Program-made: the position numbers and the translations under genes
Source: Sedimenticola hydrogenitrophicus
Lineage (GTDB): Bacteria; Pseudomonadota; Gammaproteobacteria; Chromatiales; Chromatiaceae
Assembly (NCBI RefSeq): GCF_025175675.1
Contig: NZ_JANIOA010000013.1
Coordinates: 46,026 to 110,025 of the forward strand
Direction of reading: 5' to 3'
DNA: 64,000 nt
The notes under the pieces: generated by a model
The model's input: the letters and a program-made list of their open reading frames with translations, nothing else
What the model was told of the DNA's origin: nothing
Databases searched by the model: none
Part shown: piece by piece, positions 3,681-60,651 of the stretch
Layout: every line of letters begins with the position of its first letter
Position numbering within the stretch: position 1 is the first letter of the stretch

Positions 3681-4136
3681 ATGAATGCGACAACGACCTA
3701 TCATGCAAGCTGCTTTTGTGGCGGGGTAGCGATGACCCTGACCGGTGAGCCGGAAGTGATGGCCTACTGCCATTGTGACTCCTGCCGCCGCTGGTCCGCC
3801 GGCCGGGTCAGTGCCTTTACCTTGTGGAAACCGGAGAGCCTGGCGATTACCCGGGGTGCGGAACAGATAGCCAGTTATGAGCAAAATCCCCGTTCTGATC
3901 ATCGGCAGGTGGTCAGCAAACGCAAGTGGTGCAAAGTATGCGGCGGGCATCTCTATACCGATCACCCCACCATGGGCTTGATTGATGTCCCGTCAGCGGT
4001 GATTGATCATTTTCATTTTGAGCCGGCATTCCATGTGCACTATCAGGAGTCCGTACAACCCATTCGGGATGGGTTGCCCAAGTTCAAGGATTTACCCAAG
4101 GAGGCCGGCGGCACCGGGAATCGGCTGGCTGAGTGA
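3681..4136 (+). CDS. GFA-family (glutathione-dependent formaldehyde-activating-like) zinc protein
   Basis: A 151-residue Mss4-like beta-tent fold protein of the GFA family. Zinc-ligand cysteines are in the expected order: CFC near residue 11, CHCDSC near residue 30, and CKVC near residue 84. Members are named after glutathione-dependent formaldehyde-activating enzyme, though most have no proven activity. The start is supported by GAGGAGAA upstream of the ATG. It lies 58 bp after the nitrilase remnant on the same strand. Its C-terminus (GLPKFKDLPKEAGG) is typical of bacterial members. Confidence 0.85.
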   Translation: MNATTTYHASCFCGGVAMTLTGEPEVMAYCHCDSCRRWSAGRVSAFTLWKPESLAITRGAEQIASYEQNPRSDHRQVVSKRKWCKVCGGHLYTDHPTMGLIDVPSAVIDHFHFEPAFHVHYQESVQPIRDGLPKFKDLPKEAGGTGNRLAE

Positions 4137-41611: not shown

Positions 41612-42877
41612 TCAATACCGCAGCAGGTCGAACGGCTGCACCTCCACCAGGTCGCCCGGCTGGATATTGCCGGTCTCGTCGGACAACCGGATCAGGCAGT
41701 TGCCGTCGCTCATCGAGCTGAGCACGCCCGAACCCTGGCGCCCGGAGCTGCGCACCACCAGTTCACCCTGTTCATCCAGCGACAGGATGCCGCGCTGAAA
41801 TTCGGTACGCCCCGGCAGTTTGCGCAGCGGCGAGCCGGCCTTTACCCGGAGCGTCGGCGCCAACTGTTCCCGTTTGCCCTGCAGGCGCTGGATCGCCGGC
41901 CGGACAAACTGCAGGAAGGTGATCATCACCGCGACCGGATTGCCCGGCAGGCCGAAGAAAGCGGCGTTGCCGATATGGGCAAAGGTGAGCGGGCGGCCCG
42001 GTTTGATCGCCACCTTGGCGAAATGCACTTCCCCCAGCTGCGGGATCGCCTCGGCGATAAAGTCCGCCTCACCCACCGAGATACCGCCGGAGGTGAGCAC
42101 CAGATCCGCCTCGCGGGCGGCCTGGGTCATGGCCGCCTGGATGGCGGCCGCCTCGTCCGCGATCACCCCCATGTCGATCACATCGGCCCCCAGTTCGCTG
42201 AGCATGCCGAACAGGGTGTAGCGGTTGCTGTCATAGATCTGCCCCTCTTCCAGGGGCTGGCCGATACTGCGGATCTCATCCCCGCTGGAGAAGAAGGCGA
42301 CGCGCAGGCGGCGGTACACGGCGACTTCCGGGATACCGAGCGAGGCCAGCAGGCCCAGCTGTGCCGGGCCGATTTCGTCTCCCGGCTGCAGGATCACGGC
42401 GCCGGCCTGGATATCCTCTCCCGCCTGGCGCACGTTGGCGCCGGGTTTGCCGCGGGCGTCGATGACCGCCTCGTCGCCATCCCGCTCCACCCACTCCTGC
42501 ATGATCACGGTATCGGCCGTCTCCGGGACCTTGGCCCCGGTCATGATGCGGATACACTCTCCCCGGTTCAGTTCCCCCCGATAGGGTTGGCCGGCAAACG
42601 CACTGCCCACCACCCTTAGCCGGCGCTGCCCATCCAGGGGTATATCCTTGCCGTACAGGGCATAACCGTCCATGGCGGAGTTGCGATAGGCCGGCACATT
42701 GATTGGGGAGGCGATGGGGCGAGCCAGTATGCGCCCCAGGGCACTGCGCAACGGGGCCGCCTCGATCCCCTCGACCGGGCGGAGCCTGGCCGCGATCATC
42801 CGCAGGGCGCCGCTGGCGCTGATTGAGCTGTCGGTGGCGTCCATGCAGCAGTCGCTGGGTTTGTTAATATCGGTCAT
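41612..42877 (-). CDS. moeA: MoeA-type molybdopterin molybdenumtransferase
   Basis: A 421-residue MoeA, which inserts molybdate (or tungstate) into adenylylated pyranopterin. Conserved segments: NVPAYRNSAMDGYAL, GECIRIMTGAKVPETADTV, SSGDEIRSIGQPLEEGQIYD, TSGGISVGEADFI and FGLPGNPVAVMITF. It lies 0.5 kb downstream of tupC on the same strand, near tungstate uptake and a tungsten enzyme, so it may be the tungsten-dedicated paralogue that W-using bacteria often carry. That specialisation is inference; general Moco synthesis is equally possible. Confidence 0.93.
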   Translation of the reverse strand: MTDINKPSDCCMDATDSSISASGALRMIAARLRPVEGIEAAPLRSALGRILARPIASPINVPAYRNSAMDGYALYGKDIPLDGQRRLRVVGSAFAGQPYRGELNRGECIRIMTGAKVPETADTVIMQEWVERDGDEAVIDARGKPGANVRQAGEDIQAGAVILQPGDEIGPAQLGLLASLGIPEVAVYRRLRVAFFSSGDEIRSIGQPLEEGQIYDSNRYTLFGMLSELGADVIDMGVIADEAAAIQAAMTQAAREADLVLTSGGISVGEADFIAEAIPQLGEVHFAKVAIKPGRPLTFAHIGNAAFFGLPGNPVAVMITFLQFVRPAIQRLQGKREQLAPTLRVKAGSPLRKLPGRTEFQRGILSLDEQGELVVRSSGRQGSGVLSSMSDGNCLIRLSDETGNIQPGDLVEVQPFDLLRY

Positions 42878-43012: not shown

Positions 43013-43410
43013 TCTGGGCTGACTAGAATGGTACTTAACTTAAGCCAAGAACCACCGTCATCCCGGCGCAGGCCGGAGGAGTGGTGCAGGGATGCACCGT
43101 TTACGGACCTAAGGATGGCATCCAGACTGCTTAATGGTGGCGGTGTTCCTGGATTATTTGCTTCGCTCACCCTTCGGGCCGACTTTCAGTCGTTCAACGC
43201 GCTTCGCGCTTTTGTCCGGCCTGCGCCGGAGAAGTGGTGCAGGGACGCACCGGTTACGGACCTAAGGATGGAATGACGAAAACTCTGCAATTCACCTTAC
43301 GATAAGTGCCATTCGGGTCTGACTAGAAGGAACCACGGATAAACACGGATTCACACGGATAGGAGACCAGATCTCTGAATCTGTGTTTATCTGTGTGAAT
43401 CCGTGGTTCT
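43013..43410. repeat. composite of nested repeats (families E, D and G)
   Basis: Outer family E: CTGACTAGAATGGTACTTAA near 43019 against AAGTGCCATTCGGGTCTGAC near 43304-43323. Inside, family D: CGTCATCCCGGCGCAGGCCG from 43056 against CCGGCCTGCGCCGGA near 43217. A 44-bp block (GGAGTGGTGCAGGGATGCAC...) is directly repeated at about 43077-43118 and 43231-43272. Next to it a family G hairpin pairs GGAACCACGGATAAACACGG (from 43330) with GTGAATCCGTGGTTC (to 43409), ending 15 bp from the tupC stop. Confidence 0.75.
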
Positions 43411-43424
43411 CCAGAGTTGATGGC

Positions 43425-44150
43425 TCATAACCCGGTAGTCCCCTTGTGCAGCTCCACCACGGTCGGTTTTTCCGGCTGCAGCGGTTTCATGGTCAACTCG
43501 CCGCCATAGAGGTGGATATGGCGACTCAGATTGAGCCACCCGACCTGGGGTTCGTGGCTGGTATAGATCACCCCAATCTGCTGTTGCTGCAGCCGGTTGA
43601 TCAGGTCGTAACAGATGCCGCGCGAGCGTTTGTCCAAATTGGAGACCGGTTCGTCCAGCAGCATCAGGCGCGGGGAGAGCACCCAGGCGCGGGCGATGGC
43701 GACCCGCTGCTTCTCGCCACCGGAAAGTTCGTGGCAATTGCGCTGCGCCAGATGTTCCAGGGAGATCAGTTCCAGCGCTTCGCCAACCCGGGTGGTGATC
43801 ACCTGGCGGCTCAGCTTCTTGCGCTTCAGGCCGTAGGCGATATTGTCGTACACCGAACAGTCGAACAGATAGGGGTGCTGGTGCAGGTAGCAAATCTGCT
43901 CGCGCAGAAAGCGGTAGCTTTGCCGCCATTTCCGGCGGTTGCCGGCAAACTGAAATCCCGCCTGGTGGGGTTTCAGCAGTCCGGCGAGAATGCGCAGCAG
44001 CGTGGTCTTTCCCGACCCGTTCTGGCCGGTCAGCAGGGTCAGTTCGCCAGCCCGCAGATCCAGCGATATATCCTTGAGAATGGTGCGCTCACCACGGCTG
44101 AAGGAGAGCCGTTCGAGCTTCAGCCAGGGCTGGGGGGTATCAGGTATCAT
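43425..44150 (-). CDS. tupC: tungstate ABC transporter ATP-binding protein
   Basis: A 241-residue ABC ATPase: Walker A GQNGSGKTTLLRILAG, Q-loop YLHQHPYLFD, ABC signature ELSGGEKQRVAIARA, Walker B RLMLLDEP and switch His in YTSHEP. It lacks the C-terminal TOBE/MOP domain that ModC carries, in keeping with TupC. It overlaps tupB by 4 bp (ATGA). Substrate assignment rests on TupA and on the adjacent tungsten enzyme. Confidence 0.9.
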   Translation of the reverse strand: MIPDTPQPWLKLERLSFSRGERTILKDISLDLRAGELTLLTGQNGSGKTTLLRILAGLLKPHQAGFQFAGNRRKWRQSYRFLREQICYLHQHPYLFDCSVYDNIAYGLKRKKLSRQVITTRVGEALELISLEHLAQRNCHELSGGEKQRVAIARAWVLSPRLMLLDEPVSNLDKRSRGICYDLINRLQQQQIGVIYTSHEPQVGWLNLSRHIHLYGGELTMKPLQPEKPTVVELHKGTTGL

Positions 44151-44848
44151 TGGATCACCTCACCCTTGCCCTGCACCTGGCCGAGCAGGATGTTCAGAAA
44201 CAGCGCCAGGGAGAGCAGCACCAGGCCGAGCGCGATACCCTCCGCGAAGCTCCCCTTGCTGGTCTCCAGCGCAATGGCGGTGGGGATGTTGCGGGTGTAG
44301 TTGAGGATGTTGCCGCCCAGCATCATGGAGCTGCCCACTTCGGCGATGATGCGGCCGAAACTCGCCACCAGTGCGCCGATCAGGCCAAAACGCGTCTCGT
44401 GCAGGATGGTCAACAGTGCCCGCAAGGGACTGGCGCCCAGGGTCAGGGCCGTCTCCCAGGCGCGGCGGTCCGAGGCCTGCAGGGCGGAGTGGGCCATGGC
44501 CACCAGCAGCGGAAAGCAGAGAAAGATCTGGCCCAGGATCATGGCGTCCTGGGTGAACAGCAGCCGCCAATCGCCCAGTGGTCCCGCCTTGGAGAGCAGG
44601 ATGTAGAGCGTCAGCCCGACCACCACCGCGGGGATGGAGAGGGCGGTATTGAATACCGACACCAGCAGGCGTCGGCCGGGGAATGAGAAGTAGGCCAACA
44701 GGAAGGCGGTCAGGATGCCGAACGGGGCGGCATAGAGCAGGGCACGCACCGAGACGCTGAAAGAGATGCCGATAATGGTCCAGAGCGCGCTATCGCCGGT
44801 GAACAGCAGATAGAGGGCCTGGTAACTTGCAGCGCTCAGTGATTCCAT
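44147..44848 (-). CDS. tupB: tungstate ABC transporter permease
   Basis: A 233-residue permease with about five membrane helices and the conserved EAA-type cytoplasmic loop WETALTLGASPLRALLTILH. Typical TupB/ModB-like segments are PAVVVGLTLYILLSKAGPLG and IIAEVGSSMMLGGNI. It starts 6 bp downstream of tupA and overlaps tupC. Confidence 0.9.
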   Translation of the reverse strand: MESLSAASYQALYLLFTGDSALWTIIGISFSVSVRALLYAAPFGILTAFLLAYFSFPGRRLLVSVFNTALSIPAVVVGLTLYILLSKAGPLGDWRLLFTQDAMILGQIFLCFPLLVAMAHSALQASDRRAWETALTLGASPLRALLTILHETRFGLIGALVASFGRIIAEVGSSMMLGGNILNYTRNIPTAIALETSKGSFAEGIALGLVLLSLALFLNILLGQVQGKGEVIQ

Positions 44849-44854
44849 TGGTGC

Positions 44855-45661
44855 CTATTTCAACAGCAGGGGGATAAACAGTGGTTCACCGTGCAGGCGG
44901 TAGTCGCGGATCAGTTCCTGGCCGGTCGGTGAACCGATCCAGTCGATCAGTTTCATGGCATCGGCATAGTTGGTTTCCGGGTGCTTGGCCGGATTGACCG
45001 CAATAACGCCATAGGGATTGCTCAATTTGTTATCACCTTCGTTGAGCAGGGACAATTCCACCTTGCCCTTATAGGCCAGCCAGGTACCGCGGTCGGTCAG
45101 CGAGTAGCCGTCCAGTTCGCTGGCCATCTGCAGGACCTTGCCCATGCCCTGTCCGGCCTCGATATACCAGCTTCCTTCGGGCTGGATATTGGCGGCCTTC
45201 CACAGCTCCTGCTCTTTTTTGTGGGTGCCGGAGTCGTCGCCGCGGGAGATGAATCTGGCCTGGGAAGTGCTGATCTTCTGCAATGCCTCGGCCACCGATT
45301 GAGCGCCCTTGATAGCGGCCGGATCGCTGTTCGGGCCGACGATGACGAAATCATTGTACATGAACTGGATGCGGTCGGTGCCGAAACCATCCGCGACGAA
45401 TTTCTCCTCCGCGGCCACGGCGTGGACCATTACCACGTCCACATCGCCGTCGCGCCCCATCTTCAGCGCTTTGCCGGTGCCCACGGCGATCACGTGAACC
45501 TCGATTCCGGTCTGTTTTTGGAAGGCGGGCAGCAGGATATCCAGCAGGCCGGAGTTCTGGGTACTGGTGGTGGTGGCCATCCGCAACGGGGCGGCCAGGG
45601 CGGCCAGGGCAAGGGACCAGAGCAGACAGAGGCTGATCAGCAGGCGCAATTTTTTATACAT
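44855..45661 (-). CDS. tupA: tungstate-binding periplasmic protein
   Basis: A 268-residue solute-binding protein with signal peptide (KLRLLISLCLLWSLALAALA). The mature N-terminus has the oxyanion-binding motif TTTSTQNSGLLDILLP, the hallmark of TupA as opposed to ModA or WtpA. Further conserved segments are VDVVMVHAVAAEEKFVADGF and FISRGDDSGTHKKEQELW. ATG 45661 has AAGGA about 9 nt upstream; the frame is open far upstream but that part is leader RNA. The 160-nt leader contains a stable foldable element and a ModE-like operator beyond it. Confidence 0.95.
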   Translation of the reverse strand: MYKKLRLLISLCLLWSLALAALAAPLRMATTTSTQNSGLLDILLPAFQKQTGIEVHVIAVGTGKALKMGRDGDVDVVMVHAVAAEEKFVADGFGTDRIQFMYNDFVIVGPNSDPAAIKGAQSVAEALQKISTSQARFISRGDDSGTHKKEQELWKAANIQPEGSWYIEAGQGMGKVLQMASELDGYSLTDRGTWLAYKGKVELSLLNEGDNKLSNPYGVIAVNPAKHPETNYADAMKLIDWIGSPTGQELIRDYRLHGEPLFIPLLLK

Positions 45662-45822: not shown

Positions 45823-45846
45823 CGCTATGTTTTATAGCACATAGCG
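45823..45846. promoter_or_regulatory. ModE-like operator 1 (tupA side)
   Basis: Perfect 8-bp inverted half-sites CGCTATGT and ACATAGCG separated by 8 bp (TTTATAGC). This is the layout of the E. coli modA operator bound by ModE. It lies 162 bp upstream of the tupA start, and on the tupA strand it contains a TATAAA that could be a -10 box, so binding should repress tupABC. Confidence 0.75.
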
Positions 45847-45954
45847 CACGGCTCCAACAATATTCGTCTGACCGAGCTGCCGGGCCTCTCCGCTCCCGGC
45901 GTGGAGAACACCGGGGCCGGGGATTCGCGCATTGGTCTGGCGTCATCGCGTATG

Positions 45955-45978
45955 CGTTATGTACTAAAAAACATAACG
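45955..45978. promoter_or_regulatory. ModE-like operator 2 (aor side)
   Basis: Half-sites CGTTATGT and ACATAACG, again perfect inverted repeats with an 8-bp spacer (ACTAAAAA). It has the same architecture as operator 1, 109 bp away, with one symmetric base change. It is about 320 bp upstream of aorA and likely controls the aor operon. No modE gene is in the window. Confidence 0.75.
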
Positions 45979-46298
45979 AAATAAACGGCTTAGGACTCCC
46001 ATCCCATACTCGCTAATTTGGGTTGCTTCTTCTATATTCACTAGACCACCAAGAAAGAATCGGCAGGGATTAGGAGAATAAGGAGGATCACCACCCAAAC
46101 AATAAGACTAAAGTATGAGAACGGATTGATTGGTACTGGTTTTTCGTCGTGTGTTGTGGGTTTTTAAATGCAATCAACAGTGACAACCGAAGTGAACGAG
46201 ACGCCTCCCGGCAATCGGGTTCAATCGGGCCCGGCAATTCGGCGACGCCAGACAGACTCGCTTTTTAGCACCAAGCATAAAACTATTCAGAGGAGGCA
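45979..46298 (+). other. long leader of the aor operon
   Basis: About 320 bp between operator 2 and aorA. It holds an isolated ribosome-site-like AAGGAGGATCACC (from about 46080) without a canonical start codon at usable spacing, and the short ORF listed separately. I recognise no riboswitch, but the length suggests post-initiation control. Confidence 0.35.
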
Positions 46299-46302
46299 AT
46301 GA
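46168..46302 (+). CDS. short ORF overlapping aorA start
   Basis: A 44-codon ORF (MQSTVTTEVNETPPGN...) ending TGA at 46300-46302, so it overlaps the tandem ATGs of aorA. Its last codons are the aorA ribosome site itself. GTGGG lies 7 nt before its ATG, a mediocre ribosome site. It has no family resemblance. It could be a coupled leader peptide, or chance. Confidence 0.3.
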   Translation: MQSTVTTEVNETPPGNRVQSGPAIRRRQTDSLFSTKHKTIQRRQ

Positions 46303-46781
46303 TGCAGAGGTCACTCTATATCTCGCCGGACAAATGCACAGGCTGTCTACAGTGTGAAATGGCCTGCTCCTTCGAGCATGAAGGCACGTTCAACCCCGCA
46401 AAATCCCGTATCAAGGTATTTACTTTTCACTCCGAGGGCCGTTTCGTCCCCTACACCTGCACCCAGTGTGATGAGGCCTGGTGCAAGAGCGCCTGTCCGA
46501 CAGAGGCGATCAGTCTGGATGCCGCAACCGGCGCCAAGATGGTGAATGACGCACTCTGTGTCGGCTGCAAGGTCTGCACCATCGCCTGTCCCTTCGGCAC
46601 CATCAATTACAATTCCGTCACCGGAAAGGTTATCAAGTGCGATCTGTGTGGCGGTGATCCCGCCTGTGCCAAGGCCTGCCCGACCCAGGCCATCACCTAC
46701 ATCGATGCGGAGGGTACCGGCTACGACAGGATGCGCGCCTGGGCCTCCCGCACCGATAACCAATCCGCGGCACGAGCATAG
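46302..46781 (+). CDS. aorA: AorA, iron-sulfur subunit of tungsten aldehyde oxidoreductase
   Basis: A 159-residue polyferredoxin with four Cys groups: CTGCLQCEMAC, CTQCDEAWCKSACP, CVGCKVCTIACP and CDLCGGDPACAKACP, enough for four [4Fe-4S] clusters. It is the HycB/DmsB-like electron-transfer subunit that links the tungsten site to the flavin subunit. Of tandem ATGs at 46299 and 46302 the second has better spacing (5 nt) from AGGAGG. It is followed by aorB after 15 bp. The layout matches the aor operon described in Aromatoleum aromaticum. Confidence 0.92.
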   Translation: MQRSLYISPDKCTGCLQCEMACSFEHEGTFNPAKSRIKVFTFHSEGRFVPYTCTQCDEAWCKSACPTEAISLDAATGAKMVNDALCVGCKVCTIACPFGTINYNSVTGKVIKCDLCGGDPACAKACPTQAITYIDAEGTGYDRMRAWASRTDNQSAARA

Positions 46782-46796
46782 ACAAGGGAGCAGATC

Positions 46797-48647
46797 ATGA
46801 GCTGGCAGAAAAAAATCCTGCGTGTAAACCTGACCGAAGGCACCTGTACGCCTGAGCCGCTGAACATGGAGTGGGCAGCGGATTACCTGGGGCAGCGGGG
46901 CTTGGGTACAAAATATCTGGTGGAGGAGGTCGACCCGAAAGTCGATCCCGTATCGCCGGACAATAAACTGATCTTCGCCACCGGTCCGCTGACCGGCACG
47001 GCCGCTTCGACCGGTGCGCGTTACTCGGTGGTTACCAAGGGCGCCCTCACCGGGGCCATCGCCTGTTCCAACTCGGGAGGCTACTTCGGCGCGGAACTGA
47101 AGTTCGCCGGTTGGGACATGATCATTTTCGAAGGCAAGGCGCCGAAACCGGTCTACCTCTATATCAACGATGATCAGGCCGAGCTGATCCCGGCGGACGA
47201 GATCTGGGGCAAGAGCGTCTGGGAGACGGACAAGATCCTCCATGACCGGCATCAGGACCCGCAACTGAAGATCTCCGCCATCGGCCGGTCCGGAGAAGAG
47301 GGCGTGATGTACGCCTGCATCGTCAATGACCTGCACCGCGCCGCCGGACGTTCCGGAGTCGGCACCGTGATGGGGTCAAAAAACCTCAAGGCGGTCGCCG
47401 TGCGCGGTACCATTGGGGTCTCGGTCAAGGATCCGCAGCGCTTCATGCAGACCGTCACCGAGAAGAAAAAGATCCTGGCGGGGAATCCGGTGACCGGACA
47501 GGGCCTGCCCACCTACGGTACCCAGGTGTTGATGAACGTGATCAACGAGGTGGGTGCATTGCCCACCCGGAACTCCTCGGCGGTGCAGTTCGACGGCGCC
47601 TCCAAGATCTCCGGCGAGGCGATGCATGAGCCGCGTGCCAGTGACGGCAAAACCAATCTGGTGACCAACCAGGCCTGCTTCGGCTGTACCATCGCCTGTG
47701 GCCGTATCTCACGGATCGACAAGGAGCACTACACGGTGAAGAACCGCCCCGAGTACTGGGGGGCCTCGGGTGGCCTGGAGTATGAGAATGCCTGGTCGCT
47801 GGGTGCCGATTGCGGGGTGGATGACCTGGATGCCCTCACCTTCGCCAACTACATCTGCAACGAACAGGGGTTCGATCCGATCACCTTCGGCGCCACCCTG
47901 GCAGCCGCCATGGAGCTCTACGAGAAGGGGGTGATCACCGACGCGGATACCGGCGGCGTGAAGCTGAACTTCGGTTCCGCCGAGGCGCTCACCACCATGG
48001 CGGAGCAGGTGGGTAAAAATGAAGGTTTCGGCAAGATCCTCGGTCTGGGTTCCAAGCGGCTGTGCGAGAAATACGGCCACCCGGAGCTCTCCATGAGCGT
48101 CAAGGGCCAGGAGTTCCCGGCCTACGATCCGCGCGGCATCCAGGGCATGGGGCTCACCTATGCCACCAGTAACCGGGGCGCCTGCCACTTGCGCAGCTAC
48201 ACCGTGGCGTCGGAGATCCTCGGCATCCCGGAGAAGACCGATCCACTGGTCACGGGAGGCAAGGCGGGACTGGTGAAGGCGTTCCAGGATGCCACCGCGG
48301 CGGTGGATTCCAGCGGACTCTGTCTGTTCACCACCTTCGCCTGGACCCTGGAGGACTTCTATCCCCAGATCGATGCCGCCTGTGAGGGGGAATGGACCCT
48401 GGAACGTCTGGCACAGACCGGCGAACGGATCTGGAACCTGGAGCGCCAGTTCAACCTGGCGGCCGGTTTTACCGCCCAGGATGACACCCTGCCGAAGCGG
48501 ATGCTGACCGAACCGGCCACCAGCGGACCGGCGAAGGGAAAGGTGAATGGGCTGGACCAGATGCTCCCCGAGTACTACGAGCTGCGTGGCTGGAGCAAGG
48601 AGGGCGTGCCGACTTCGGACACCCTGCAGAATCTCGGTCTTTCATAA
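46797..48647 (+). CDS. aorB: AorB, tungsten aldehyde:ferredoxin oxidoreductase catalytic subunit
   Basis: A 616-residue AOR-family enzyme holding a tungsto-bispyranopterin cofactor and one [4Fe-4S] cluster; it oxidises aldehydes to acids (and can reduce acids at low potential). The N-terminal domain reads AADYLGQRGLGTKYLVEEVD and GARYSVVTKGALTGAIACSN. The cluster Cys are in ACFGCTIACGRIS with the distal one in SSGLCLFTTF. The pterin-binding region includes SWSLGADC-like AWSLGADCGVDDLDAL and YDPRGIQGMGLTYATSNRGA. It has no signal peptide, so it is cytoplasmic. A terminator-like hairpin follows before aorC. Confidence 0.95.
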   Translation: MSWQKKILRVNLTEGTCTPEPLNMEWAADYLGQRGLGTKYLVEEVDPKVDPVSPDNKLIFATGPLTGTAASTGARYSVVTKGALTGAIACSNSGGYFGAELKFAGWDMIIFEGKAPKPVYLYINDDQAELIPADEIWGKSVWETDKILHDRHQDPQLKISAIGRSGEEGVMYACIVNDLHRAAGRSGVGTVMGSKNLKAVAVRGTIGVSVKDPQRFMQTVTEKKKILAGNPVTGQGLPTYGTQVLMNVINEVGALPTRNSSAVQFDGASKISGEAMHEPRASDGKTNLVTNQACFGCTIACGRISRIDKEHYTVKNRPEYWGASGGLEYENAWSLGADCGVDDLDALTFANYICNEQGFDPITFGATLAAAMELYEKGVITDADTGGVKLNFGSAEALTTMAEQVGKNEGFGKILGLGSKRLCEKYGHPELSMSVKGQEFPAYDPRGIQGMGLTYATSNRGACHLRSYTVASEILGIPEKTDPLVTGGKAGLVKAFQDATAAVDSSGLCLFTTFAWTLEDFYPQIDAACEGEWTLERLAQTGERIWNLERQFNLAAGFTAQDDTLPKRMLTEPATSGPAKGKVNGLDQMLPEYYELRGWSKEGVPTSDTLQNLGLS

Positions 48648-48765: not shown

Positions 48766-50022
48766 ATGCGACATGTCATTATCGGTGCAGGCCCGGCAGG
48801 CGTAACCGCTGCCGAAACCCTGCGAAAACAGGACCCGGCCGCGGAGGTGGTGCTGATCGGCGACGAGCCGGAACCCGCCTATTCGCGAATGGCCATACCC
48901 TACTACCTGTCGAACAAGATCGGAGAGCGGGGCACTTACCTGCGTCACGATCCGGATCACCTGGATAAACTGGGCATCGGCCAGATACAGAGTCGGGTGA
49001 CCCGGGTGGACAGCGCGGCAAAACAGCTGCAACTGGCCGGAGCGGACCCGGTCGGTTTTGACCGGCTGCTGCTGGCCACCGGCTCGAATCCGATCAAACC
49101 GCCGATTCAGGGGCTGGATCAGCCCGGAGTGCACCACTGCTGGACCCTGGAGGACGCCCGCAACATCGTCAAGTATGCCGCGCCGGGATCGCGCGTCGTG
49201 CTGATGGGTGCCGGTTTCATCGGTTGCATCATCATGGAGGCGCTGGTCGCCCGCGGCGTCAAACTGACGGTGGTGGAGATGGGCGACCGCATGGTGCCGC
49301 GGATGATGGACCAGGCCTCCGGAAACCTGATCAAGCAATGGTGCCTAAACAAGGGGGTGGACGTACACACCTCCACCCGGGTGCTGGGTATCGAGGCGGG
49401 ACGCAACGGCGGCACCCGCTTCCGTCTCGCCTGCGAGCCGGTGGATGACATCGATGCCGACCTGGTGGTGGTGGCCGCCGGGGTCAAGCCGGCAACCGGT
49501 TACCTGGAAGGCAGCGGTATCGAGATCGGCCAGGGCGTGGTGGTCAACGACTTCCTCGAATCCTCGGTGCCCGGCATCTATGCCGCCGGGGACACCTGCG
49601 AGGGCATGGATTGGGGCACCGGCCAGCGCGCTGTCCATGCCATCCAGCCGGTGGCTGCTGAAACCGGTCGTACCGCGGCGCTCAACATGTGTGGCCAGCC
49701 CACCCGCCATCACGGCAGCATGGCGATGAATGTGCTGGATACCCTGGGTCTGATCTCGGTATCCTATGGCCAGTGGATGGGGGTCGATGGGGGGGATGAG
49801 GTGCACCGGCTCGATGAGTCGGCCTACCGCTACATCAAGCTGCAGTTCCAGGAGGACCGGCTGGTGGGGGCCATTACCCTCGGGATGACGGAACATGTCG
49901 GCGTGCTGCGTGGTCTGATACAGACCCGGCTGCCCCTGGGCAGATGGAAGCAGCACCTGATGGAGGACCCGACCCGGATCATGGAGGCATACCTCGGCGC
50001 CACCCAGATGACGGTGGGCTGA
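48766..50022 (+). CDS. aorC: AorC, FAD/NAD(H)-binding subunit
   Basis: A 418-residue flavoprotein of the pyridine-nucleotide-disulfide-reductase-like group. It has an N-terminal FAD motif (IIGAGPAGVTAAETLRKQD), a second dinucleotide fold (VVLMGAGFIGCIIMEALVAR) and the FAD-closing motif PGIYAAGDTCEG. It couples aldehyde oxidation to NAD+ or benzyl viologen in the characterised AorABC enzyme. It lies 118 bp after aorB, behind the hairpin. ATG 48766 has AAGGAG upstream. Confidence 0.92.
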   Translation: MRHVIIGAGPAGVTAAETLRKQDPAAEVVLIGDEPEPAYSRMAIPYYLSNKIGERGTYLRHDPDHLDKLGIGQIQSRVTRVDSAAKQLQLAGADPVGFDRLLLATGSNPIKPPIQGLDQPGVHHCWTLEDARNIVKYAAPGSRVVLMGAGFIGCIIMEALVARGVKLTVVEMGDRMVPRMMDQASGNLIKQWCLNKGVDVHTSTRVLGIEAGRNGGTRFRLACEPVDDIDADLVVVAAGVKPATGYLEGSGIEIGQGVVVNDFLESSVPGIYAAGDTCEGMDWGTGQRAVHAIQPVAAETGRTAALNMCGQPTRHHGSMAMNVLDTLGLISVSYGQWMGVDGGDEVHRLDESAYRYIKLQFQEDRLVGAITLGMTEHVGVLRGLIQTRLPLGRWKQHLMEDPTRIMEAYLGATQMTVG

Positions 50023-51711: not shown

Positions 51712-53427
51712 ATGTCATATCAGGTGCTAGCCCGCAAGTGGCGTCCGCGGATATTCAGTGAACTGGTGGGGCAGGCGCATGTGGTGCGCGCACTCAGCAA
51801 TGCCCTGGACAACGACCGGCTGCATCACGCCTACCTGTTCACCGGCACCCGGGGCGTCGGCAAGACCACCCTGGCGCGGATCTTTGCCAAATCGCTCAAT
51901 TGCGAACACGGCGTCGGTTCCACCCCCTGCGGACAATGCAGTATCTGCCGCGAGATCGACGAGGGGCGCTTTGTCGATCTGCTGGAAGTGGACGCCGCCT
52001 CGCGCACCAAGGTCGATCAAACCCGGGAGCTGCTGGAGAACGTCCCCTATGCGCCGGTCCGGGGCCGCTACAAGGTCTATCTGATCGACGAGGTCCACAT
52101 GTTCTCCGACAGCAGCTTCAATGCCCTGTTGAAGACCCTGGAGGAACCGCCGCCGCATGTGAAATTCCTCCTCGCCACCACCGATCCCCAGAAGGTGCCG
52201 GTCACGGTCCTATCGCGCTGTCTGCAGTTCAACCTGAAACGGCTGCCGCTGGATCAGATCCAGGCATATCTGAAGGAGTTGTTGAATCGCGAGGGCATTC
52301 AGCACGAGGATCGGGCCCTGCTGCTGCTGGCCAAGGGGGCGGACGGCAGCATGCGTGACGCCCTCAGCCTGCTGGATCAGGCGATCGGCTTCGGCGGCGG
52401 CAAGGTGCTGGAGAATGATGTGCAGGCGATGCTCGGCAGCATCGCCCAGGACCGGGTGCATGACCTGCTGGACGCCCTGGCCGACCTGGATGCCAACCGG
52501 GTGATCGCGCTGGTGGGCGAACTGGCGGAGATGGCCCCGGACTTTGCCGGCGTGCTGCAGGACCTGCTCTCGCTGCTGCACCGAATCGCCCTGGTGCAGG
52601 CGGTGCCGGACGCCATGGACAACAGCGCCGGCGATGAGGCCCAGGTGCGCACCCTGGCGGAGAAATTGTCGCCCGGGGATGTGCAGCTGTTTTACCAGAT
52701 CGGGCTGATCGGGCAACGCGATCTGCCGCTGGCGCCGGACCCCCGGGCCGGGTTTGAAATGGTGCTGCTGCGTATGCTGGCCTTCCGCCCGCAGGGGGAT
52801 GGGGAACGCCCGGCCAAGGGTCCGGAACGCGACGGGTCGGATAAAAAAAAACGCTCTGAAACGGCTCCGCCAGTCGCTGTAACCGCTGCCGCAAGGGCCG
52901 CGATCAGGCCGGACGCCCAGGCGCCCGGCAACAGCGCCGCCGCCCCGGAGCGCGTGGCACCCGCCCCGGAGCGCGTGGCACCCGCCCCGGAGCGCGTAGC
53001 CGTGGCGGCCGCGGCCATCCCGGAGCGTGCCGGGAATCCGGTTGAATTTCGCCACTGGCATCAGGTGGTTGATCTGCTCTCTCTGGGGGGCATCGCCAAA
53101 CAGTTGGCCAACAATTGTGTCTATGATTACTGGGACGGCGTGACCCTCAGCTTGAAACTGGATCAGGCGCACCAGCACATGCTGGTGGGCAGTACCGAAC
53201 AGCGGCTGCATGCGGCGCTGCAAGCCCATCTCGGGCGCGAGCTCAAGCTGAAGATCACTCCGGAGAGCGTACAGGCGGCGACCCCGGCCAAGATCCAGGC
53301 CCAGGCCGTGGCCGACCGGCAGCAGGCGGCCGAGGTGACGATACGCGAAGACCCCATGGTGCTGGCCCTGGAGGCCGGGTTCGGTGCGGCCGTGATCCCG
53401 GGTTCGGTACGCCCGGTGGATGAATAA
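51712..53427 (+). CDS. dnaX: DNA polymerase III subunits tau/gamma
   Basis: A 571-residue clamp-loader ATPase. Walker A GTRGVGKTTLARIFAKSLNC, zinc Cys cluster (CGQCSICRE), Walker B VYLIDEVHMF and the sensor segment LLATTDPQKVPVTVLSRCLQ are present. A run of nine A at 52843-52851 (codons for Lys378-380) lies just after the ATPase/collar part; a -1 shift there adds two codons and then TGA, giving a gamma-like product of about 382 residues. A 21-bp tandem repeat encodes PERVAPA three times in the tau linker. The C-terminal tau domain continues to 571. Confidence 0.96.
   Translation: MSYQVLARKWRPRIFSELVGQAHVVRALSNALDNDRLHHAYLFTGTRGVGKTTLARIFAKSLNCEHGVGSTPCGQCSICREIDEGRFVDLLEVDAASRTKVDQTRELLENVPYAPVRGRYKVYLIDEVHMFSDSSFNALLKTLEEPPPHVKFLLATTDPQKVPVTVLSRCLQFNLKRLPLDQIQAYLKELLNREGIQHEDRALLLLAKGADGSMRDALSLLDQAIGFGGGKVLENDVQAMLGSIAQDRVHDLLDALADLDANRVIALVGELAEMAPDFAGVLQDLLSLLHRIALVQAVPDAMDNSAGDEAQVRTLAEKLSPGDVQLFYQIGLIGQRDLPLAPDPRAGFEMVLLRMLAFRPQGDGERPAKGPERDGSDKKKRSETAPPVAVTAAARAAIRPDAQAPGNSAAAPERVAPAPERVAPAPERVAVAAAAIPERAGNPVEFRHWHQVVDLLSLGGIAKQLANNCVYDYWDGVTLSLKLDQAHQHMLVGSTEQRLHAALQAHLGRELKLKITPESVQAATPAKIQAQAVADRQQAAEVTIREDPMVLALEAGFGAAVIPGSVRPVDE
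52843..52859 (+). promoter_or_regulatory. dnaX slippage site (A9) with -1 stop
   Basis: Nine consecutive A followed by CGCTCTGA. In the -1 frame the stretch reads AAA-ACG-CTC-TGA, so slippage ends translation after Thr-Leu. An A9 run is also the transcriptional slippage site of Thermus thermophilus dnaX, while E. coli uses ribosomal slippage on A-AAA-AAG. Confidence 0.7.
52943..53000 (+). repeat. 21-bp tandem repeat in dnaX
   Basis: CCCCGGAGCGCGTGGCACCCG repeated from 52943, 52964 and 52985 (last copy partial), encoding Pro-Glu-Arg-Val-Ala-Pro-Ala units in the flexible linker of tau. The copy number may vary between strains. Confidence 0.85.
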
Positions 53428-55812: not shown

Positions 55813-58800
55813 ATGATGAAACACAAGGGGAATCCCCTGCTGCAGCAATTGCTGGATAACCTGGCCGGATATCCCGATTCCGGATTCACCCCGGAGGAGC
55901 GCACCCAGATCGAGCAGATGCTGGGTTTTTATTATCGTCACATCTCGGCGGTGGACCTGGAGTCCTCCACGATCGCTGACCTGGTGGGGGCGGTTATCGC
56001 CCACTGGCAGTTGCTGAAGGCGCGCAAGGGAGATGAACCCTCGGTGCGGGTCTATAACCCCAACTTTCAAGAGCACGGCTGGCAAAGCCCCCACACCATC
56101 ATTGAGGTCGTCGCCACCGACCGGGTGTTCCTGGTGGATTCGCTCTCCATGGGTCTCAATCGGGAAGGCCTGACGATTCACCTGACTATCCATCCCCTGG
56201 TACGCACTGTGCGGGACAGCGCGGGACGCCTGCAGGAGATCAGGGCGCCAGGAGAGAAGGGGGGCGAGAAGGAGGGCGTGGTGGAGTCCCTGATCCACTT
56301 CGAAGTGGAGCGGCAGCTCTCCGCCGATGTGCTGCATGGGCTGGAAACGATGATTCGCGATGTGATCCGTGACGTCACCCACGCCAATACCGACTGGCAG
56401 GAGATAAAACAGCGGGTCAACGCGATCAGCGAAATCCTCGACCGGGATAAACTGCCGATCGATGCCACGAAGCAGTTTGAAGCCGGTGAGTTTCTCAAAT
56501 GGATCAATAACGAGCATTTCACCTTCCTGGCCTATTGCGAATTCGATCTGGTCGGTGCGGGGGAGGCCCCGGCGCTGCAGCTCAACAGCACCTCGCAGTT
56601 GGGGCTTTTTCGCGAATCCTGCCTCAATGACCAGCAGGCGGGGGCGGTCATACCGGTGGCCGGTGAATCCGCTATCGCCAGCCAGGAATTCCTGGTGGTG
56701 ACCAAGTCCAATGCCAAGTCCACGGTGCACCGCCCGGCCTACATGGATTTTATCGGCATCAAGCGTTTCAACCGGCAGGGCGAGGTGGATGGGCTCTATT
56801 GCCTGCTGGGCCTGTTTACCTCCGTGGCCTACAACAGCCCGCCGAAGGACATACCGCTGCTGCGGCAGAAGACCCGCGAGGTGATTAGACGCGCCGGTCT
56901 CTCCGCTTCCAGCCACTCGGGCAAGGCGCTGGACAACATCCTTGCCACCTTCCCGCGCGATGCACTGTTCCAAACCCCGGTGGATGAGCTGGAACGGCTG
57001 GCGATGGGCATCCTCGGTCTGCAGGAACGGCAGCGCACCCGCCTGTTCGTCACCCGGGACCTGTTCAAGCGCTTCTACTCCTGTCTGATCTACCTGCCCC
57101 GGGAACGCTACTCAAGGCGGTTGCGGCTGGCGGTCCAGAAGGTGCTGGTGAACGCACTGAACGGGACCGAGGTCGAATTCAGCACCCAGTTCACCGAATC
57201 GACTCTGGCGCGTATCCATCTGATCATCCACACGCCGGTCGGCGAGGAGATGGCGTGCACCCCGGCGGAGTTGGAGTCGCTGGTCATCGGCGCCACCACC
57301 ACCTGGCGCGATGAACTGCATACCGCGCTCATCGAACAGTACGGCGAGGCGCAGGGTTCGGAGTATTACAAGATCTATGAGAACGCCTTCCCGAGCGGTT
57401 TTCGCGAAGACTTCTACCCGCGCACCGCGGCGGCCGATGTGGCGCGGATCGAACAGGCACGGCAGAGCGGGCATCTGGGTCTCCACTTCTACCGCCCGAT
57501 ACTCGAATCCTCCGAGTATGTTCATTGCCGGCTCTACTTTGCGGACAATCCGGTACCGCTCTCGGATGTGATACCGATCCTGGAGAATATGGGCCTGACG
57601 GTATTCGGCGAACGGCCCTATCGGGTTCGCCATCGGGGTGGACACGTCTGGATACACGACTTCTCCATGCGCTACGCCGGCGGTCACGAACACCTGACCG
57701 ACGAGATCAGCCGGCTGTTCCAGGAAGCATTCCTCAAGGTCTGGGAGGGCGATGTCGACAATGACGGCTTCAATCAGCTGGTGCTGGATGCCGGGCTGAT
57801 GTGGAAGGAGGTGGTGTTGCTGCGCGCCTATTCGCGCTATTTGAAGCAGATCCATTTCCCCTTCAGCCGCTCATATATCATCGAGAGTCTGACCCGCAAT
57901 GCCGATATCACCCGCTTGCTGGTGGACCTGTTCAATCTCAAGTTCAACCCGGCGCGCAAGGCGAGGACGTCGCAGATCGACGCCCTCCTGCAGAAGATCG
58001 ACAGCCAGCTCGAAGCGGTGGCCAGCCTGGATCAGGACCGCATCCTGCGCAGCTATGTCAACATCATCCAGTCCACCCTGCGCAGCAACTTCTTCCAGCC
58101 GGATGCCGAGGGGCGGCTCAAGTCCTACATCTCGTTCAAGGTTGACCCGCGCCAGGTGAGCGGCATGCCCCTGCCGATGCCGATGTTCGAGATCTTTGTC
58201 TTCTCCTCGCGTATGGAGGGGGTGCATCTGCGCGGCGGTAGGGTGGCCCGTGGCGGGCTGCGCTGGTCCGACCGGATGGAGGATTTCCGTACCGAGGTGC
58301 TGGGCCTGATGAAGGCGCAGATGGTGAAGAACACGGTGATCGTGCCGGTCGGTTCCAAGGGCGGCTTTATCGTCAAACGCCCCCTGGATGGCCTGGAGCG
58401 CGAACAGATGATGGAAGAGGTGGTGTACTGTTATCGCACCCTGCTCAAGGGGATGCTGGATATCACCGACAACCTGACGGACGGCAAGGTGCTGCCGCCG
58501 GTCGACGTGGCGCGCTACGACGAGGATGACCCCTATCTGGTGGTGGCGGCGGACAAGGGGACCGCCACCTTCTCCGACATCGCCAACGGCGTGGCCGCCG
58601 AGTACGGCTACTGGCTGGGGGATGCCTTCGCCTCCGGCGGCTCGGTCGGCTATGACCACAAAAAGATGGGCATCACCGCGCGTGGCGCCTGGGAATCGGT
58701 CAAACGCAATTTCCGCGAGCTGGGGGTCGACATCCAGAGCAGCGATTTCCGCGTGCTGGGGATTGGTGACATGTCGGGTGACGTGTTCGGCAACGGCATG

Positions 58801-60651
58801 CTGCTGTCCCGGCATATCAAACTGGTGGCGGCGTTCAACCACCAGCACATCTTCCTCGATCCGGATCCCGATCCGGAGCGCTCGTACAAGGAGCGCAAAC
58901 GGCTGTTCAAGCTGCCACGCTCCAGCTGGACCGACTACGACAAGAACCTGCTGTCGGCGGGTGGCGGCATCTTCCCGCGCAGTGCCAAGTCCATCACCCT
59001 GAGCGATGAGGTGAAGGCGATGACCAGTGCCAAGGTGGACCGGATGACGCCCACCGAACTGATCAACCTGCTGCTCAAGTCCCCGGTCGATCTGATCTGG
59101 AACGGCGGCATCGGCACCTATATCAAATCCGAACAGGAGAGCCACGAGGACGTCGGCGACAAGGCCAACGACGCACTGCGGGTAAACGGCAGCGAGCTGC
59201 GCTGCAAGGTGGTGGGCGAGGGCGGCAATTTGGGCGTCACCCAGCTGGGGCGGATCGAGTTTGCCAACAAGGGCGGGCTGATCTATACCGACGCCATCGA
59301 CAACTCGGCCGGCGTCGACTGCTCCGACCATGAGGTCAATATCAAGATCCTCCTGGGCCAGGTGGTGGCCAATGGCGACATGACCGAAAAACAGCGCAAC
59401 AGACTGCTGGTGGAGATGACCGACGAGGTGTCCGAACTGGTACTGGCGGACAACTACGCCCAGACCCAGTCGATCAGCATGGTGTTCTCCGAGGCGCCCG
59501 AGCGTCTCAACGAACATGCCCGCTTCATCGACTTCCTGGAAAATGAGGGACGGCTCAATCGCGCACTGGAGTATTTGCCCAGCAAAAAGGTGATCGCCGA
59601 ACGCCAGGCGGAGAAGCGCGGCCTGACCAAGCCGGAAGTGGCGGTCCTGCTTGCCTACAGCAAAATGACCTACTTCGATGCCCTGATCCACTCCGATATC
59701 CCGGATGATGAATTCCTCGAAATCGAGCTGATGGACTACTTCCCCAAGGCCCTGGGCGAGCGCTTCAGCAAGGAGATGCGCTCGCATCAGCTGAAGCGGG
59801 AGATCATTTCCACCCACCTGACCAACAGCATCGTGGATCACATCGGCCCCGGTTTCGGCTTCCGCGTGCGCGAGGAGGTGGGGACCAATATTGCCGGGGT
59901 CACCCGCGCCTATCTGTCGGCCAGCAAGATCTTCTCCACCGATCAGCTGTGGCGCGAGATCGAGGCATTGGATAACCAGGTGGCCGCCTCGGTGCAACTG
60001 GAGATGATGCGCATGATGGCCCGCCTGCTGGAGCAGAGCGTGCTGTGGATACTGCGGTCGCGTCAGAAGATCGTGGTACGCGACCTGGTGGATTACTTCC
60101 AGGAGGGGGTCCAGGAGCTGCTGGAACAGATGCCGAAACCCCTCGCCTCCAAAGATCGGCTGACCCTGAACCGGCAGATCAAATATTATCTGAATGCCGG
60201 CGTGCCCCGCGAGGTGGCGCAACAGGTGAGCCGCACCGTGATGCTGGCATCGGCCATGGATCTGGTGGAGGTCGCCAGGCAGCGAAAGCGGCAGATCCAG
60301 GTGGTCGCATCCCTCTATTACAACCTCGGTTCCACCCTGGAATTTCACTGGGTGCGTGACCAGATCGCCAAGCTGGCGGAGCAGAGCCACTGGCACAGCA
60401 TGGCCAAGACACGCCTGATCAATACCCTGAACCGGCACCAGCGGGAGCTCACCGCGCAGATACTGGCCACCACCGTGAAGAAACAGAAAAACGCCAGGAA
60501 GATGATCGAGCAGTGGGCCGAAGAGTACCGCTTCGCCTACGACCGGCATCAGCGAACCATAACCGACCTGAAGGCCCGCACCTCGGTCGACTTCGCCATG
60601 ATGTCCGTGGTGGTGGCGGGGGTCGGTGCTCTGCTGAAATCGGACCTGTAA
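55813..60651 (+). CDS. NAD-specific glutamate dehydrogenase, 180-kDa class
   Basis: A 1612-residue enzyme of the large bacterial NAD-GDH class (about 1600 residues in Pseudomonas and Streptomyces), which deaminates glutamate to 2-oxoglutarate and ammonia and feeds the TCA cycle. The long N-terminal half has ACT-like regulatory segments (FLVDSLSMGLNREGLTIHLT; VTENVLL is absent, as expected). The catalytic core includes GGLRWSDRMEDFRTEVLGLM, VPVGSKGGFIVKRPL, and the nucleotide-binding part LGIGDMSGDVFGNGMLLSR. The C-terminal helical domain is complete. ATG 55813 is used. It is monocistronic. Confidence 0.96.
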   Translation: MMKHKGNPLLQQLLDNLAGYPDSGFTPEERTQIEQMLGFYYRHISAVDLESSTIADLVGAVIAHWQLLKARKGDEPSVRVYNPNFQEHGWQSPHTIIEVVATDRVFLVDSLSMGLNREGLTIHLTIHPLVRTVRDSAGRLQEIRAPGEKGGEKEGVVESLIHFEVERQLSADVLHGLETMIRDVIRDVTHANTDWQEIKQRVNAISEILDRDKLPIDATKQFEAGEFLKWINNEHFTFLAYCEFDLVGAGEAPALQLNSTSQLGLFRESCLNDQQAGAVIPVAGESAIASQEFLVVTKSNAKSTVHRPAYMDFIGIKRFNRQGEVDGLYCLLGLFTSVAYNSPPKDIPLLRQKTREVIRRAGLSASSHSGKALDNILATFPRDALFQTPVDELERLAMGILGLQERQRTRLFVTRDLFKRFYSCLIYLPRERYSRRLRLAVQKVLVNALNGTEVEFSTQFTESTLARIHLIIHTPVGEEMACTPAELESLVIGATTTWRDELHTALIEQYGEAQGSEYYKIYENAFPSGFREDFYPRTAAADVARIEQARQSGHLGLHFYRPILESSEYVHCRLYFADNPVPLSDVIPILENMGLTVFGERPYRVRHRGGHVWIHDFSMRYAGGHEHLTDEISRLFQEAFLKVWEGDVDNDGFNQLVLDAGLMWKEVVLLRAYSRYLKQIHFPFSRSYIIESLTRNADITRLLVDLFNLKFNPARKARTSQIDALLQKIDSQLEAVASLDQDRILRSYVNIIQSTLRSNFFQPDAEGRLKSYISFKVDPRQVSGMPLPMPMFEIFVFSSRMEGVHLRGGRVARGGLRWSDRMEDFRTEVLGLMKAQMVKNTVIVPVGSKGGFIVKRPLDGLEREQMMEEVVYCYRTLLKGMLDITDNLTDGKVLPPVDVARYDEDDPYLVVAADKGTATFSDIANGVAAEYGYWLGDAFASGGSVGYDHKKMGITARGAWESVKRNFRELGVDIQSSDFRVLGIGDMSGDVFGNGMLLSRHIKLVAAFNHQHIFLDPDPDPERSYKERKRLFKLPRSSWTDYDKNLLSAGGGIFPRSAKSITLSDEVKAMTSAKVDRMTPTELINLLLKSPVDLIWNGGIGTYIKSEQESHEDVGDKANDALRVNGSELRCKVVGEGGNLGVTQLGRIEFANKGGLIYTDAIDNSAGVDCSDHEVNIKILLGQVVANGDMTEKQRNRLLVEMTDEVSELVLADNYAQTQSISMVFSEAPERLNEHARFIDFLENEGRLNRALEYLPSKKVIAERQAEKRGLTKPEVAVLLAYSKMTYFDALIHSDIPDDEFLEIELMDYFPKALGERFSKEMRSHQLKREIISTHLTNSIVDHIGPGFGFRVREEVGTNIAGVTRAYLSASKIFSTDQLWREIEALDNQVAASVQLEMMRMMARLLEQSVLWILRSRQKIVVRDLVDYFQEGVQELLEQMPKPLASKDRLTLNRQIKYYLNAGVPREVAQQVSRTVMLASAMDLVEVARQRKRQIQVVASLYYNLGSTLEFHWVRDQIAKLAEQSHWHSMAKTRLINTLNRHQRELTAQILATTVKKQKNARKMIEQWAEEYRFAYDRHQRTITDLKARTSVDFAMMSVVVAGVGALLKSDL

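Follow-up and report, generated by a model that had tools for sequence, protein, structure and literature searches.

Two conserved palindromes occupy the gap between the divergent tungstate importer (tupABC) and tungsten aldehyde oxidoreductase (aorABC) genes of Sedimenticola hydrogenitrophicus. They are interpreted here, at a probability of roughly 0.7, as the operators of a single unlinked short ModE protein that would repress tupABC through its predicted -10 element and activate aorABC from ~77 bp upstream. That the short ModE binds at this locus, which promoters operate, in which direction each site acts and what the signal would be are all inferred from the sequences. The genes and operators in the window, i.e. 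the whole 64-kb stretch of DNA that was analysed, are as follows.

41612..42877, minus strand: moeA, molybdopterin molybdotransferase (NF007960, 554 bits, above the cut-off)
43425..44150, minus strand: tupC, ATPase (PF00005; named from its position after tupAB)
44147..44848, minus strand: tupB, permease (NF041773, 188.5 bits, below the cut-off of 320; PF00528)
44855..45661, minus strand: tupA, tungstate-binding protein (NF041772, 274.9 bits, below the cut-off of 400; PF12849)
45823..45846, no strand: operator 1 (importer side), perfect 8-8-8 inverted repeat CGCTATGT-TTTATAGC-ACATAGCG, as a whole CGCTATGTTTTATAGCACATAGCG
45955..45978, no strand: operator 2 (enzyme side), perfect 8-8-8 inverted repeat CGTTATGT-ACTAAAAA-ACATAACG, as a whole CGTTATGTACTAAAAAACATAACG
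46299..46781, plus strand: aorA, ferredoxin-like iron-sulfur subunit (PF12837/PF13247)
46797..48647, plus strand: aorB, tungsten aldehyde oxidoreductase large subunit (PF02730, PF01314)
48766..50022, plus strand: aorC, FAD/NAD subunit (PF07992)

The aorABC names follow the purified Aromatoleum enzyme as described in PMC6365974. Because tupA and tupB score below the curated cut-offs of the NCBI tungstate models, tungstate rather than molybdate is the likely, not the proven, substrate of tupABC. The moeA gene lies downstream of tupC on the same strand, across a gap of about 550 bp in which no gene was seen and which holds a 59-nt direct repeat (86%; 43063-43121 and 43216-43274) and a 31-nt imperfect inverted repeat (43330-43360 with 43379-43409). 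Elsewhere the window carries a bacterial small SRP RNA (RF00169, 51423-51519), upstream of the DNA polymerase III gamma/tau gene (51712-53427), and an NAD-glutamate dehydrogenase of the large bacterial type (55813-60651, 1612 aa).

Candidate operators 1 and 2 and the predicted promoters

The gap from tupA (start 45661, minus strand) to aorA (start 46299, plus strand) measures about 640 bp. The earlier note had reported in it two perfect 8-bp inverted repeats with 8-bp spacers, at 45823-45846 and 45955-45978, and both are present as claimed. The arms of the two operators display 0 mismatches to the Mo-box inverted repeat CGYTATRT. The likeness to an E. coli-type operator that had been claimed also holds, the E. 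coli ModE consensus ATCGCTATATA-N6-TATATAACGAT having the same 8-8-8 layout according to PMC2700814. At up to 3 mismatches the pattern CGYTATGT-N8-ACATARCG matches the window three times against a shuffle mean of 0.41, a count of 3 being reached in 0/100 shuffles; the third match, at position 8254, carries 3 mismatches. When any sequence is allowed, perfect 8-8-8 inverted repeats number five in the window; the three besides operators 1 and 2 are GC-rich and unrelated to them. For the complete 4.71-Mb genome, base composition predicts 0.0019 perfect sites, and two were observed, both inside this one 640-bp gap. The genome-wide scan at up to 3 mismatches returned 26 forward matches, comprising the two operators at 0 mismatches and 24 further matches at exactly 3, with no other site at 2 mismatches or fewer; the reversed pattern, scanned as a control over the same genome, gave 31. 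Shuffles, genome scan and base-composition expectation together rule out a chance palindrome. Many scattered sites are likewise ruled out, since the 24 extra matches carry 3 mismatches and do not exceed the reversed-pattern control; the pattern put forward in the earlier note thus brings no flood of random sites. When A or G was allowed at position 7, no third site appeared at 0 or 1 mismatch, and two of the 24 matches (C42:85916 and C68:16100) dropped to 2 mismatches. The frames surrounding C42:85916, read without a family search, are sugar transferase-like, helix-hairpin-helix and methyltransferase frames, with no Mo/W gene recognised. Given the lack of a third site at 0-1 mismatch, and of a recognised Mo/W gene in this 2-mismatch neighbourhood, the recognisable regulon consists of the tupA-aorA gap alone.

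Conservation was followed in six Sedimenticola genomes, including the window's own (G000), which form one lineage within a family sample of 146 genomes. Both operators were found in the tupA-aorA gap of all six. Operator 1 is kept at 0-1 mismatches in 6/6 genomes and its spacer is also conserved, while operator 2 is kept at 0-1 mismatches in five and at 3 mismatches in the sixth (G095). Outside the operators the aligned gaps are mostly poorly conserved, except for a few promoter-like blocks. A simple sigma-70 consensus scan of the tupA-aorA gap found no promoter, so the following elements were assigned from conservation alone.

45831..45836, minus strand: predicted tupA -10, TATAAA preceded by TGC, inside operator 1
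45855..45860, minus strand: predicted tupA -35, TTGTTG, 18 bp from the -10
46033..46038, plus strand: predicted aor -10, TATATT in the block TTCTTCTATATTC, identical in 6/6 genomes

The predicted tupA -10 begins at operator base 11 (minus strand) in all six genomes and reads TATAAA in five of them and TATAAC in G095, and the predicted -35 reads TTGTTG in five and TTGTGG in G061. The tupA transcript is predicted to start at 45824 (minus strand), and the aor transcript at about 46045 (plus strand), from a promoter with a poor -35 (TCGCNA). Operator 2 lies 75-79 bp upstream of this predicted start in 6/6 genomes, within a surrounding gap that is variable. Activators are often located about 77 bp upstream of a transcription start. 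Operator 1, which covers the predicted tupA -10, is therefore predicted to occupy a repressor position and operator 2 an activator position. The two sites had been described as alike, and they do share one architecture, but they would not be equivalent, as one is placed on a predicted -10 and the other at about -77 with opposite effects predicted. The distance between the operators varies from 113 to 140 bp across the six genomes, which argues against a rigid DNA loop of fixed helical phase. That a Moco/Tuco riboswitch or other leader RNA, and not the palindromes, governs the locus is very improbable: the predicted aor leader is long enough to raise the question (46045-46298, about 255 nt in G000; 228-258 nt in the six genomes), but it is poorly conserved and no Rfam family other than the SRP RNA reached its gathering score in the window.

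The unlinked short ModE protein

A ModE-domain search of the G000 genome gave eight matches, one of which is strong (E 8.6e-24, C24:65595-65864); the other seven are weak (E 0.0035-1.1) and belong to longer frames of 283-461 aa. None of the eight lies on the window's contig. The remark in the earlier note that no regulator gene is nearby thus holds for ModE-type genes, and the ModE-like protein that it expected elsewhere in the genome was found.

G000:C24:65568-65909: short ModE, 114 aa, PF00126 only, unlinked to tup-aor

The domain search detected no TOBE domain in this protein. Its match to TIGR00637 (E 1.5e-24; 85.9 bits) stands under the curated cut-off of 98.5. Among solved structures, phmmer places it nearest to 2ijl (2.4e-19), a 135-aa protein which we take to be from Agrobacterium, with E. 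coli ModE 1b9m (1.7e-12) and 1o7l also matched. The short ModE is present in 6/6 genus genomes at 82-100% identity and is the sole ModE match at E≤1e-10 in four of them. G003 contains two more ModE-domain genes and G135 one more, and their products could also bind the operators. In G003 the short ModE gene adjoins glyoxalase-family and MFS genes, and the frames beside it in G000 read as the same two. The proposal that a ModE-like protein regulates both units is hence retained as regards ModE-type sites, one per unit, and a protein encoded elsewhere, but that protein consists of a DNA-binding domain only, unlike the metal-binding E. coli ModE.

Three further roles or partners were considered and rejected. 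For autoregulation of the short ModE gene in G000 no site was found, the best match in the 300 bp upstream having 7 mismatches. For control of the G000 modB-modC-mobB cluster (PF00528, PF00005 plus TOBE, and PF03205) there is likewise no site at 3 mismatches or fewer in 10.5 kb; no modA was seen immediately before modB in this cluster. A conserved molbindin acting as sensor partner is rejected since a stand-alone TOBE protein occurs in only two of the six genus genomes (G000 and G117). The only TOBE frames of similar size common to all six are those of 401-415 aa, and in G000 this frame is a ModC-type ATPase with TOBE located between the permease gene and mobB. The stand-alone TOBE protein of G000 (L080:1480-1740; G000:C69:30301-30486) is Mop-like, has 86 aa and adjoins a frame that reads as a sulfate-type binding protein. 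In G003 a LysR/ModE-type HTH (PF00126) joined to a PBP_like domain (L208:1396-2466, around G003:C1:1526931-1527476, minus strand) is next to a frame that reads as a NuoE/formate dehydrogenase-type subunit and is possibly another type of Mo/W regulator.

A short ModE without a TOBE domain, whose only conserved TOBE partner would be the ModC-type ATPase (the stand-alone TOBE protein being found in 2/6 genomes), might bind both operators only as a repressor or constitutive roadblock, with no metal or cofactor response and no activation from operator 2. This is quite unlikely, given that operator 2 is held at -75.5 to -78.5 from the predicted aor start in 6/6 genomes, next to a conserved -10 block and a poor -35, where activators are often found.

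Operators and regulators in other genomes

The association of the palindrome with ModE genes extends beyond Sedimenticola. Three short ModE proteins were aligned and used to scan named genomes, and the best 80 of 487 confirmed loci (1.41 Mb) were searched with CGYTATRT-N8-AYATARCG at up to 1 mismatch. This gave 56 matches in 37 of these 80 loci, many of which are close relatives (Methylobacterium, Bradyrhizobium) and some of which have the domain in long open frames, not all being short proteins. Spacers of 4-7, 9, 11 and 12 gave 0 matches and a spacer of 10 gave one, against 56 for a spacer of 8; four scrambled or reversed pattern controls gave 0. ModE-operator pairs of one kind stand at mod genes in some genomes and at tup genes in others, serving molybdate genes in the former and tungstate genes in the latter. 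The operator adjoins a modE gene in G050, G278, G385, G219 and G266, with modB nearby in the first four and a ModE frame of 281 aa in G266. At tup genes, G358 and G238 (family f94) encode a short ModE, of 52% and 48% identity to the Sedimenticola protein, respectively, in divergent orientation to tupA, and an operator with 0 mismatches lies between the two genes. G205 (family f61) also has a short ModE divergent from tupA, and the roughly 70 bp between these two genes hold a 2-mismatch operator, CGATATGC-N8-ACATAACG. Two of the best 80 of the 487 loci, L146 and L164, carry a short ModE gene no more than a few kb from tupABC. Two operators lie between modE and modB in L164, where a 2-mismatch site (3849) is also located upstream of tupA, whose match begins at 3934; no operator at 2 mismatches or fewer was seen in L146. 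Wiring of the short ModE and operator to tupA is uncommon: 93 of 369 class genomes have tupA (E≤1e-40), 27 of these also have at least one site at up to 1 mismatch, and when the sites of all 27 were placed by eye they lay at tupA in three (G000, G238 and G358) and elsewhere in 24, so that only 3/93 tupA genomes have such an operator at tupA.

Within the family, 49 of the 146 genomes have tupA, 43 of them outside the genus. At tupA, none of these 43 has the G-form operator (up to 1 mismatch), and a ModE match at E≤1e-10 is missing from 42 of them, all but G050. The 24 of the 43 tupA loci that were read, up to 1.5 kb on each side, contain no site at 2 mismatches or fewer with A or G at position 7. 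In three of the 24 (G050, G043 and G041) aorA lies upstream of tupA on the opposite strand, and the tupA-aorA gaps of G050 and G043 contain no operator site. G050 combines tup-aor with a short ModE, and its operator is found by the mod genes and not at tup-aor. This distribution suggests that the operators were gained in the Sedimenticola line or lost elsewhere. Six loci from other family genera (L070, L071, L072, L074, L075 and L076) carry a longer palindrome, CGCTATGTGAAGCTTCACATAGCG with variants, in up to four copies per genome; it fits the ModE pattern, but its spacer is itself palindromic and it is probably the site of another regulator.

The operators at tup genes carry a distinctive base. 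Half-site position 7 is A in 106 of 112 half-sites and G in 6 of 112 in the best 80 of the 487 ModE loci, and G in 30/30 half-sites of 15 tup operators, of which twelve come from one genus and two are weak (3 mismatches in G095, 2 in G205). These counts derive from aligned gaps and from searches allowing A or G, the family-wide pattern having had G fixed. The weak site at L164:3849 upstream of tupA was left out; with one half carrying A at this position and the other G, it would bring the count to 31/32. In the recognition region of the protein, the residue following RRAW is Q in Sedimenticola and H in G358, G238 and G205, and D, L and M prevail among 116 proteins. Q after RRAW occurs also at loci with mostly A-type sites, and the pairing of this residue with the position-7 G gives a lead to follow rather than a test. 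The tree built from the 116 ModE domains (89 columns; fork 85/47) did not yield one clade joining the Sedimenticola proteins with those of G358, G238 and G205. Both a common origin and convergence of the tup-linked short ModE proteins are compatible with this tree.

The expectation of one ModE-like regulator stands insofar as such a protein is encoded elsewhere, but a further candidate for the regulator is encoded in this genome, on another contig: a TaoR-family protein (excisionase-type HTH_17 plus PBP_like), of which the palindromes might be the sites. A TaoR-like protein is present in 6/6 genus genomes and in 30 of the 146 family genomes, every one of these 30 having tupA as well. In G000 it is encoded at G000:C61:16526-17458 (L209:1414-2349), on the minus strand, with PF12728 and PF12727, and a neighbouring frame reads as a histidine kinase. 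The TaoR-like gene of several other genera is located no more than a few kb from tupA on one contig, and the neighbourhood in G113 is moaA-fdhD-tupA-mobA-mobB. TaoR of Desulfovibrio is an activator of aor and a repressor of tupABC. However, the palindrome (up to 2 mismatches) is found in none of the 15 TaoR-bearing loci among the 24 tupA loci read outside the genus, two of which (G082 and G141) have one stop in the TaoR frame, and it accompanies ModE genes even in genomes chosen regardless of TaoR. As none of the 15 loci has them, TaoR does not explain the palindromes, and their assignment to this family is unlikely. The TaoR-type protein is probably an older tungsten/molybdenum regulator in the family and may act on tup-aor as well.

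Proposed switch and comparison with known systems

With the two palindromes taken as operators of the short ModE, a tungsten-replete cell would have a short ModE dimer on operator 1 that keeps RNA polymerase off the tupA -10, and short ModE on operator 2 would help the polymerase at the weak aor promoter. Plentiful tungsten cofactor would thus turn tungsten import down and the aldehyde oxidoreductase up. Lacking a metal-binding domain, the short ModE most likely responds to the pterin cofactor state, which is the first choice, or to a partner protein, rather than to regulator-bound tungstate. A broader reading is offered tentatively, at a little short of even odds: a tungsten-dedicated short ModE, with neither metal domain nor molybdate targets, would read a G-form operator (Q/H after RRAW), act as a two-way switch set by tungsten-cofactor supply, with the importer shut and the tungstoenzyme driven, and have taken over a tup-aor pair that relatives run without such sites.

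Short ModE regulators are known; a short ModE whose only recognisable sites sit at a tungstate importer and a tungstoenzyme is new. Among open-licence papers, no mention of ModE-type sites paired with tup-aor was noticed. How tungsten and molybdenum are discriminated in gene control is poorly understood, and in the present case a single regulator lacking a metal-binding domain seems to act on tungsten genes alone, through a two-site regulon with a marked operator change. What a sensorless ModE senses, and whether it tells a tungsten cofactor from a molybdenum cofactor, becomes tractable with one protein and two DNA sites.

The Agrobacterium tumefaciens ModE(S) (Atu2564), reportedly the subject of Hoffmann et al. 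2016, is said to control modABC from two boxes at one promoter region, with an activity that reportedly follows cofactor status. The Sedimenticola protein resembles it in being a DNA-binding domain only, with 2ijl as nearest solved structure, and in the two boxes that it is predicted to bind. In contrast to that modABC regulator, its recognisable sites are found only at tupABC and aorABC, and their half-sites carry TATG, not TATA.

Campylobacter jejuni Cj1507c (Taveirne et al. 2009) is a ModE without a metal-binding domain that represses modABC and the tungstate importer, and a role as the DNA-binding component within a larger complex has been proposed for the Campylobacter short ModE, as stated in PMC7011364. 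The Sedimenticola short ModE shares with it the missing metal-binding domain and the repression, here predicted, of a tungstate importer, a likeness by description and not by sequence. In contrast, Cj1507c also represses modABC, and no tungsten enzyme operon figures among its targets in the passage of PMC7011364 that describes it.

TaoR of Desulfovibrio vulgaris regulates a tungsten aldehyde oxidoreductase and combines HTH and PBP-like domains, according to PMC11980592. Unlike the short ModE, it has an unrelated DNA-binding domain (HTH_17), fused to the PBP-like domain. Reportedly (Rajeev et al. 2019), it represses tupABC and activates aor. The Sedimenticola short ModE would share with it the same two target units and the same direction, importer down and aldehyde oxidoreductase up, the Sedimenticola signs being predicted.

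The full-length E. coli ModE represses its transporter and activates a cofactor operon (the moa genes), as described in PMC11980592. The Sedimenticola system resembles it in operator layout and, with signs that are predicted, in combining a transporter repressor with an operon activator. In contrast to the short ModE, the E. coli protein has two molybdate-binding TOBE domains and molybdenum gene targets.
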